Positions 61,995 to 63,315 of a stretch of DNA of 64,000 bases are shown one piece after another. A program made the translations under genes and the position numbers. The stretch's first letter is position 1. The number at the start of each line of letters is the position of its first letter. Origin of the DNA: Synechococcus sp. JA-2-3B'a(2-13) (lineage in GTDB: Bacteria > Cyanobacteriota > Cyanobacteriia > Thermostichales > Thermostichaceae); the NCBI RefSeq assembly GCF_000013225.1, contig NC_007776.1:453277-517276 (forward strand), in the 5' to 3' direction. The notes under the pieces were generated by a model, which was not told where the DNA came from, did not search any database, and was given only the letters and a program-made list of their open reading frames with translations.

Positions 61995-63315
61995 GTTTCC
62001 AATTTCTAGGGATCCCCCCGAAGGGGGAACGTATGTCCTAAAACTACCTCGGGGTTGCAGCCGTACTGCGTTTCCAATTTCTAGGGATCCCCCCGAAGGG
62101 GGAACGTATGTCCTAAAACTACCTCGGGGTTGCAGCCGTACTGCGTTTCCAATTTCTAGGGATCCCCCCGAAGGGGGAACCAAGATCCCGCAAAAGCGCG
62201 CATCTCTCGGCACGAATGATGTTTCCAATTTCTAGGGATCCCCCCGAAGGGGGAACTACATACTACTGGATATACGGACACCGCCGTGTAAGGTTTCCAA
62301 TTTCTAGGGATCCCCCCGAAGGGGGAACTTGGATCCAGCAAAATCCGCAAAACGGATTGACTAGAGTTTCCAATTTCTAGGGATCCCCCCGAAGGGGGAA
62401 CTGGAATGCCAGTGTCATGCTCTGGCAACGTAGTTTTGGGTTTCCAATTTCTAGGGATCCCCCCGAAGGGGGAACTCCTTCACTGACCATACGGTCAGCT
62501 CACGCAACACCGACTCCCGGTTTCCAATTTCTAGGGATCCCCCCGAAGGGGGAACCTCCGTCTGAGTCAACCGAATACCGCTATAGTCCTTATTCGGGGG
62601 TTTCCAATTTCTAGGGATCCCCCCGAAGGGGGAACAGGTTCAGTCTTTCCCTGCCTTAGGAGGAAACTATGGTTTCCAATTTCTAGGGATCCCCCCGAAG
62701 GGGGAACAGCTCACTGATATCCAGCGCGAGCAAATTCGTGCGGCGAAGTTTCCAATTTCTAGGGATCCCCCCGAAGGGGGAACGCTCGACAACCTCACAT
62801 GGGAAGCAATTCCCGGGGGAGTGGGGTTTCCAATTTCTAGGGATCCCCCCGAAGGGGGAACGCTACCCTCGTGCGTACACAAAAGCCGCCCATTTTGGCG
62901 TTTCCAATTTCTAGGGATCCCCCCGAAGGGGGAACTCGGGCTAGAACAGGCAACGGAGGAAGACATAAAAACCATCAGTTTCCAATTTCTAGGGATCCCC
63001 CCGAAGGGGGAACAGATGTTTGTTACCGTCAATGTAGCAACGAACTTTTTCAGGTTTCCAATTTCTAGGGATCCCCCCGAAGGGGGAACGGGAGGAATCA
63101 TCCAGTAATAGCCGACTTTCTTTTTGTTTCCAATTTCTAGGGATCCCCCCGAAGGGGGAACATTAAAGGGAGGGCTATATGAAGGAACCGGTCATCAAGT
63201 TTCCAATTTCTAGGGATCCCCCCGAAGGGGGAACAAACCTCCTGAATCTCCAGATCACCCCAAAACTGGGCTAGAAGGTGTTTCCAATTTCTAGGGATCC
63301 CCCCGAAGGGGGAAC
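61995..63315 (-). CRISPR. CRISPR array: 18 repeats of 36 bp, 17 spacers of 36-45 bp
   Basis: Repeats start at 61995, 62070, 62145, 62221, 62293, 62366, 62440, 62520, 62600, 62672, 62748, 62826, 62900, 62978, 63054, 63126, 63199 and 63280, and all look identical. On the plus strand they read GTTTCCAATTTC at the start and GAAGGGGGAAC at the end. In the reverse orientation the repeat ends in ATTGGAAAC, like the 5' handle of type I/III crRNAs, so I take minus as the transcribed strand and the leader as the 63.3-63.67 kb side. The crRNA-sense repeat holds CCCCC-UUCG-GGGGG, a stable hairpin. Spacers 1 and 2 are identical. No cas genes in the window. Confidence 0.97.

Follow-up and report, generated by a model that had tools for sequence, protein, structure and literature searches.

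The array at the right-hand end of this window raises the question of whether the spacers of a CRISPR system can reveal on their own that its guides pair with mRNA and, if so, how such an orientation comes about. The window, that is, the whole 64-kb stretch that was analysed, covers positions 453277-517276 of the 3,046,682-bp genome of Synechococcus sp. JA-2-3B'a(2-13), and the array, with 18 repeats, lies at genome positions 515271-516591. It is the published CRISPR-IIF of Synechococcus OS-B', with the same coordinates and repeat (Heidelberg et al., 2009, Table 1, PMC2612747), and the coordinates of its sister arrays IIA, IID and IIG agree with the same source. Plus and minus are given relative to the orientation in which the window is printed, and the array has the following parts (window coordinates).

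61995..63315, minus (the presumed crRNA strand): CRISPR array IIF, 18 identical 36-bp repeats, repeat GTTCCCCCTTCGGGGGGATCCCTAGAAATTGGAAAC
62031..62144, no strand: identical spacer pair with the intervening repeat, at the leader-distal end of array IIF
63316..63531, minus: leader of array IIF, about 216 bp, on the same side in all four same-repeat arrays; conservation stops there

All 18 repeats are perfect at 36 bp, and the 17 spacers comprise 16 distinct sequences, spacers 1 and 2 being identical. In each of the four arrays with this repeat the leader of about 216 bp is on the right-hand side, and three of them have a degenerate repeat at their far left end. Variant repeats turn up singly within arrays as well: IID has two and IIA one, which is the next to last repeat on the leader side. 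Because the leader is on the right and the left outermost repeats are degenerate, the minus strand is the expected source of the crRNA, as in the earlier note, and each crRNA should be the reverse complement of the printed plus strand. A consensus scan of the leader region (63270-63700) found no sigma-70 promoter, so that transcription is read from this anatomy.

The surroundings of the array offer a few observations of their own. Just past the leader, at window positions 63671-64000, is the start of a gene whose product opens with a signal-like stretch; we take it to resemble a polyamine-binding ABC transporter protein. About 2 kb to the left of the array (window 59240-59900), the C-terminal part of a TnpB-like gene, with an NCBIfam TnpB match below the cut-off, forms the first part of a longer open frame and looks like the remnant of a decayed IS200/IS605-type element. 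Repeat-like sequences outside arrays were found at genome positions 1575265-1575306 and at G001:C1:505185-505226.

Array IIA has the same repeat and leader as array IIF, and beside it, about 350 kb from array IIF, is an operon of cas2, cas1, csx18, a Cmr6/Cmr1-like gene, cmr5, cmr4, cmr3, cas10/cmr2 and csx1, on the strand reading toward the array. Cas10/Cmr2 matches TIGR02577 at 177.8 bits (cut-off 79.4) and PADLOC Cas10b at 1.6e-294, and Cmr4 is above its NCBIfam cut-off. Cmr3 falls under its NCBIfam cut-off but has a PADLOC match at 2.1e-93, Cmr5 has a PADLOC match only (2.8e-65) and none in NCBIfam, and one 607-aa protein combines a Cmr6-like region (below the NCBIfam cut-off) with a weak Cmr1-like region. 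Judged by these family matches the operon is type III-B, which agrees with the type III system that the earlier note had proposed. The identical repeat and conserved leader suggest that array IIF is an outlying array that uses this distant operon. The only Cas6 found in the genome adjoins its other type III locus, which is III-D.

The proposal of mRNA-complementary guides was built on five spacers.

62636..62671, plus: start-site spacer, ends AGGAGG-AAACT-ATG; likely the start of a phage gene, plus-sense
63162..63198, plus: start-site spacer, GGGAGGG-CTAT-ATG-AAG-GAA-CCG-GTC-ATC (MKEPVI); likely the start of a phage gene, plus-sense
62708..62747, plus: spacer with open frame LTDIQREQIRAA; minus-strand frames open too
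62784..62825, plus: spacer with open frame LDNLTWEAIPGGV; minus-strand frames open too
62936..62977, plus: spacer with open frame GLEQATEEDIKTI; one minus-strand frame open too

On re-reading of the sequence every string and coordinate quoted for them proved correct: both plus-sense spacers with a Shine-Dalgarno sequence and ATG are present, and the three peptide frames are open. The first two probably cover the starts of hot-spring phage genes, to judge by these signals. The caution that an open frame in about 40 bp is common by chance was also sound, with 162 of 165 type III-B spacers open on plus and 156 of 165 on minus. We defined a strict start-site pattern (a Shine-Dalgarno-like core, 3-9 nt, ATG), which, like the hairpin pattern used below, was picked after the spacers had been seen. 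At least two plus-strand spacers of this kind among the 16 distinct spacers of array IIF arose in 14 of 3000 dinucleotide shuffles; with both strands counted the number rises to 63. Across the III-B arrays of three genomes 12 of 165 spacers carry the pattern (shuffle expectation about 2.5), compared with 0.3-3.2% of fragments in nine reference sequences (seven phages, one viral contig and host DNA). These 12 divide into eight on plus and four on minus. Since both strands carry them, start sites do not by themselves show a bias, and the earlier note's reliance on them as the main strand evidence has to be given up. The pattern was found in none of the 39 III-B spacers of M44_DOE_062 and in none of 130 III-D spacers of the OS genomes (Fisher 0.0015 against III-B).

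The strand evidence comes instead from codon-level scores, from homologous spacers in the same orientation and from an unbiased type I-D control. A general amino-acid model gave every spacer a coding score for each strand; without bias, the sign of the strand difference would be random. Only spacers of length 25-60 (for the panel described below, 26-50) were kept, without exact duplicates, and counts move by one or two spacers between analyses that use a different background GC. Array IIF alone gives nine plus and seven minus among its 16 distinct spacers (p=0.63), so that this array taken singly shows no significant bias; the pooled III-B arrays do, with 105 spacers plus and 60 minus of 165. 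The pool consists of OS-B' (59 plus against 35 minus, 94 distinct spacers), OS-A (21 against 11) and the MAG M44_DOE_062 (23 against 16). Its mean score was matched in 0 of 20000 sign flips and in 0 of 300 letter shuffles that keep spacer composition. The pooled III-B guides are thus biased antisense to coding sequence, and a maximum-likelihood mixture puts the sense fraction of the spacers at 0.81 (0.69-0.92); on selected phage genes this estimator came out near the truth for P60 and N1 and low for P23-45.

With a GC model fitted per array the III-B count is 103 against 62 and the fraction 0.80. At the level of arrays, 9 of 12 OS III-B arrays are positive, which is not significant (p=0.38). 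An artefact of spacer-end composition was considered and rejected: end positions of III-B spacers show nominal deviations at 5 of 20 positions (p<0.06, uncorrected), and trimming 4 nt per end lowers the estimate to 0.71 (0.57-0.84), but with 6 nt trimmed per end the bias is still present (p=0.003), and trimming does not weaken the bias in the panel.

Where independent spacers sample one site with different sequences, they point directly to coding. Among 28 homologous spacer pairs above a loose score, 20 share their orientation and eight are opposite; at a score of at least 15 the numbers are 12 and 2. Seventeen same-orientation pairs have three or more mismatches, and in 14 of them the best frame is on the plus strand. 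Examples are SVYQVT[IV]FRHLE, RLV[ST]NSLRE and IVLSRT[EQ]YPF, the first of which joins one III-B and one III-D spacer that overlap and differ in length. Spacers B11.11 and I_OSB.17, of 37 and 46 nt, do not have identical boundaries. The site ARILA[KL]VSW[LI][DE]A was found in both orientations, so the III-B strand bias is incomplete. As a separate observation, spacers 2 and 13 of array L009 have 19 nt in common (GAAAAAGACCAGTTCACCT), one region having been sampled with overlap.

Matching the spacers to phages, which the earlier note had proposed, was carried out in part (some spacers, some collections) and gave no credible protospacer. Viral contigs were scanned with patterns from three array IIF spacers (62636-62671, 63162-63198 and, as a degenerate search, 62784-62825), from further arrays within the genus and from a spacer printed by Heidelberg et al. 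(2009). These scans were empty except for one 17-nt match (L048), whose best whole-spacer match of 29/40 we took as chance. BLAST of the whole of array IIF against phages and plasmids gave no match, as did three of four other arrays against phages, and the three weak phage matches of the fourth (E 0.7) lie mostly on repeats and were likewise taken as chance. The matches listed in genomes of the genus, to the extent that they could be traced by query position, belong to arrays or to isolated repeat-like pieces. No protospacer having been found, the phage origin, gene identity and RNA targeting of the spacers are inferred. The collections searched may lack the relevant hot-spring phages.

We had intended the 'Type I' arrays of Heidelberg et al. 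(2009) as a DNA-targeting control. They had to be rejected for this purpose: their cas locus (genome 592-604 kb, L042; arrays L035-L041), which holds cas10, csx10, csm2, csx19, csm3, csx21, a CARF protein gene and cas6, is III-D, and the III-D arrays of the genus share the bias (91 of 130 plus, fraction 0.83). The sole type I array of the genus examined, an I-E array in OS-A with only seven spacers, has one plus and six minus. A panel with a type I-D control was therefore built from other cyanobacteria; its loci came from 40 of the 92 genomes in which a cmr2-family match was found and from 40 of the 72 that had a csc2 (type I-D) match. Loci were picked nearly in list order from the top, arrays were extracted by script and found at 23 cmr2-family and 31 csc2 loci, arrays with detected repeats shorter than 34 nt were dropped (3 of 25 type III, 2 of 31 I-D), and orientation was taken from the repeat ends rather than from leaders.

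In this panel the type III spacers (21 loci, 22 arrays) are 493 plus and 263 minus of 756, a fraction of 0.75 (0.71-0.80), with a mean score above zero at all 21 loci. The I-D spacers (29 loci) are 401 plus and 429 minus of 830, a fraction of 0.50 (0.44-0.55), with a positive mean at 15 of 29 loci. Seven type III loci from genomes without an RVT_1 match still give 0.72 (0.63-0.80). The bias therefore goes with type III, and an RVT_1 reverse transcriptase is not needed for it. A gradient along the arrays was also seen in the type III panel (L057-L094): in 19 arrays with at least nine spacers (740 spacers; shorter arrays were excluded) the bias is 0.82 next to the leader and falls to 0.68 among the oldest spacers (Spearman p=0.028). 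No leader gradient of bias was found in the OS III-B arrays.

Spacers that contain a perfect inverted repeat with a stem of at least 6 bp, hereafter hairpins, form the second feature of these arrays. Four occur in array IIF.

62329..62365, no strand: hairpin spacer, perfect 6-bp stem AATCCG/CGGATT
62402..62439, no strand: hairpin spacer, perfect 6-bp stem TGCCAG/CTGGCA
62476..62519, no strand: hairpin spacer, perfect 6-bp stem CTGACC/GGTCAG
62556..62599, no strand: hairpin spacer, perfect 7-bp stem CCGAATA/TATTCGG

Over the III-B arrays 27 of 165 spacers are hairpins, against about 5% in shuffles and 4.4-10.5% in the nine reference sequences, each of which the III-B rate exceeds. The OS III-D arrays have 16 of 130 (12.3%), significantly above most references but not significantly above the richest phages. 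In the panel, hairpins make up 90 of 756 type III spacers (11.9%) and 50 of 830 I-D spacers (6.0%; Fisher 4e-5) at a similar GC (0.41 and 0.43), and the I-D spacers also exceed their own shuffles (6.0% against 3.8%). Mean folding z-scores of the two groups are close (-0.35 and -0.25, samples of 300), so the difference between type III and I-D is one of perfect stems and not of overall foldability. Hairpin spacers are strongly strand-biased in panel type III (63 against 24) and stand at 15 against 12 in OS III-B. Strict start sites occur in 15 of 756 type III and 7 of 830 I-D panel spacers (p=0.056), and a looser start-site pattern in 59 and 40 (p=0.017).

Based on these results we propose, with a probability of roughly 0.82, that array IIF is an outlying III-B array with crRNA from the minus strand and mostly mRNA-antisense guides, and that the bias arises chiefly by survival. 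The array would be transcribed from its right-hand leader on the minus strand, and about 80% of the spacers across the arrays of the system would have their coding sense on plus. Most crRNAs would then pair with phage mRNA and so trigger Cmr/Cas10 and Csx1. Cas1-Cas2 would sample DNA with hardly any regard to strand, or none, and the cells that happened to gain mRNA-antisense spacers would survive; a leaning of type III adaptation towards DNA that forms hairpins, or towards displaced coding strands, may contribute in addition. Vink et al. (2021, PMC8482600) report that type III spacers favour the strand that yields crRNA able to pair with mRNA; that study worked with matched protospacers, whereas ours uses unmatched spacers, a coding score and an I-D control. 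For the type III systems of Thermus thermophilus the bias was put down to the survival of those cells whose spacers were useful, with no acquisition rule (Artamonova et al., 2020, PMC7515739). Our system resembles that one as an RT-free type III system of a thermophile with guides antisense to phage transcripts, and differs from it in that the Thermus work followed laboratory infection with two known phages, while here natural arrays face unknown phages. Selection through survival is the safer account of the strand bias.

The excess of hairpins and start sites admits a reading of its own, namely that it mirrors the make-up of the target phage genomes and not a preference of the CRISPR system. 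The reference sequences themselves span 4.4-10.5% hairpins, and the OS III-D arrays, which perhaps face the same phages, reach 12.3%; the difference between type III and I-D, on the other hand, extends across many cyanobacteria of similar GC, though their targets may differ. We regard this reading as possible but doubtful.

Rather unlikely, in our judgement, is that orientation is set at acquisition, with Cas1-Cas2 preferring coding-strand DNA displaced by transcription, especially hairpins and gene starts. The hairpin and start-site rates of OS III-B above the references, the hairpin excess of panel type III over I-D, the panel bias that is strongest by the leader and the strand-biased panel hairpins are what such a mechanism would leave behind, and the panel leader gradient and biased hairpin spacers also speak against selection that acts only through slow retention. 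Zhang 2021 and Aviram 2022 are reportedly the source studies of a III-A preference for hairpins, start codons and the encoding strand. According to a review, III-A adaptation that works without an RT prefers DNA able to form hairpins, the stretch 10-50 bp downstream of a start codon, and the encoding strand (PMC9048733). Hairpin sequence and the encoding strand are likewise over-represented in our arrays, and gene starts in the OS III-B ones. The III-A studies, however, used plasmids and host genomes (PMC9048733), whereas ours are natural cyanobacterial III-B and III-D arrays, and the III-A zone lies downstream of the start codon, while the start-site spacers here straddle the start. Several results weigh against strand choice at acquisition. 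Thermus acquires spacers from both strands absent selection (Artamonova et al., 2020, PMC7515739), a weaker hairpin excess is present in I-D too, and OS III-D hairpins do not rise significantly above the richest reference phages. The OS III-B arrays have neither strongly biased hairpin spacers nor a leader gradient, the OS III-D arrays lack the start-site excess, and immediate survival of the acquiring cell could also make the bias strongest in new spacers. Slightly more unlikely again is a form of this idea in which the antisense orientation of RT-free cyanobacterial type III systems is set in part by Cas1-Cas2 uptake of transcription-exposed, hairpin-forming coding-strand DNA, especially at gene starts.

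That the start-site look and open frames are mere chance in 40-mers, with no real strand bias behind them, is very improbable. Array IIF on its own, at nine against seven and with frames open on both strands, would allow it, and for either single start-site spacer chance is possible; for the system as a whole it is contradicted by the sign flips, by the independent panel, where all 21 type III loci repeat the result, and by the I-D null. Least probable of all is a bias produced by a reverse transcriptase copying RNA into spacers, which would supply strand information and would have parallels in the RT-linked III-B arrays described in Arthrospira (PMC5513706) and in an RVT_1 protein about 8 kb past the end of panel locus L076 (five spacers), but which is at odds with the RVT_1-free panel loci and with this genome, where no RVT_1 match was found, none was found fused or adjacent to Cas1 at the III-B operon, and Cas1 is a plain protein of 329 aa whose family matches are to Cas1.

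In the part of Heidelberg et al. (2009, PMC2612747) that deals with these arrays, the repeat types I and II are called untyped, and neither strand bias nor hairpins nor start sites are discussed. Among the titles and opening lines of abstracts listed from the open-licence literature, which mostly leaves subscription journals outside, none described a coding-score reading from spacers alone. The kind of bias is already known; reading its footprint from unmatched natural spacers may be new.

In summary, a coding score applied to spacers alone recovers the strand bias, so that strand choice and acquisition preferences can be studied without known phages. The excess of hairpins and gene starts suggests that the preferences seen for III-A in the laboratory leave a trace in natural III-B and III-D arrays. 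If orientation were set in part at acquisition, the strand bias, hairpins and ribosome-binding sites together would be a footprint in natural arrays that is legible with no phage at hand. Finally, if the III-A preferences do leave such a trace in nature, whether antisense orientation is selected or acquired would be testable with simple acquisition assays.
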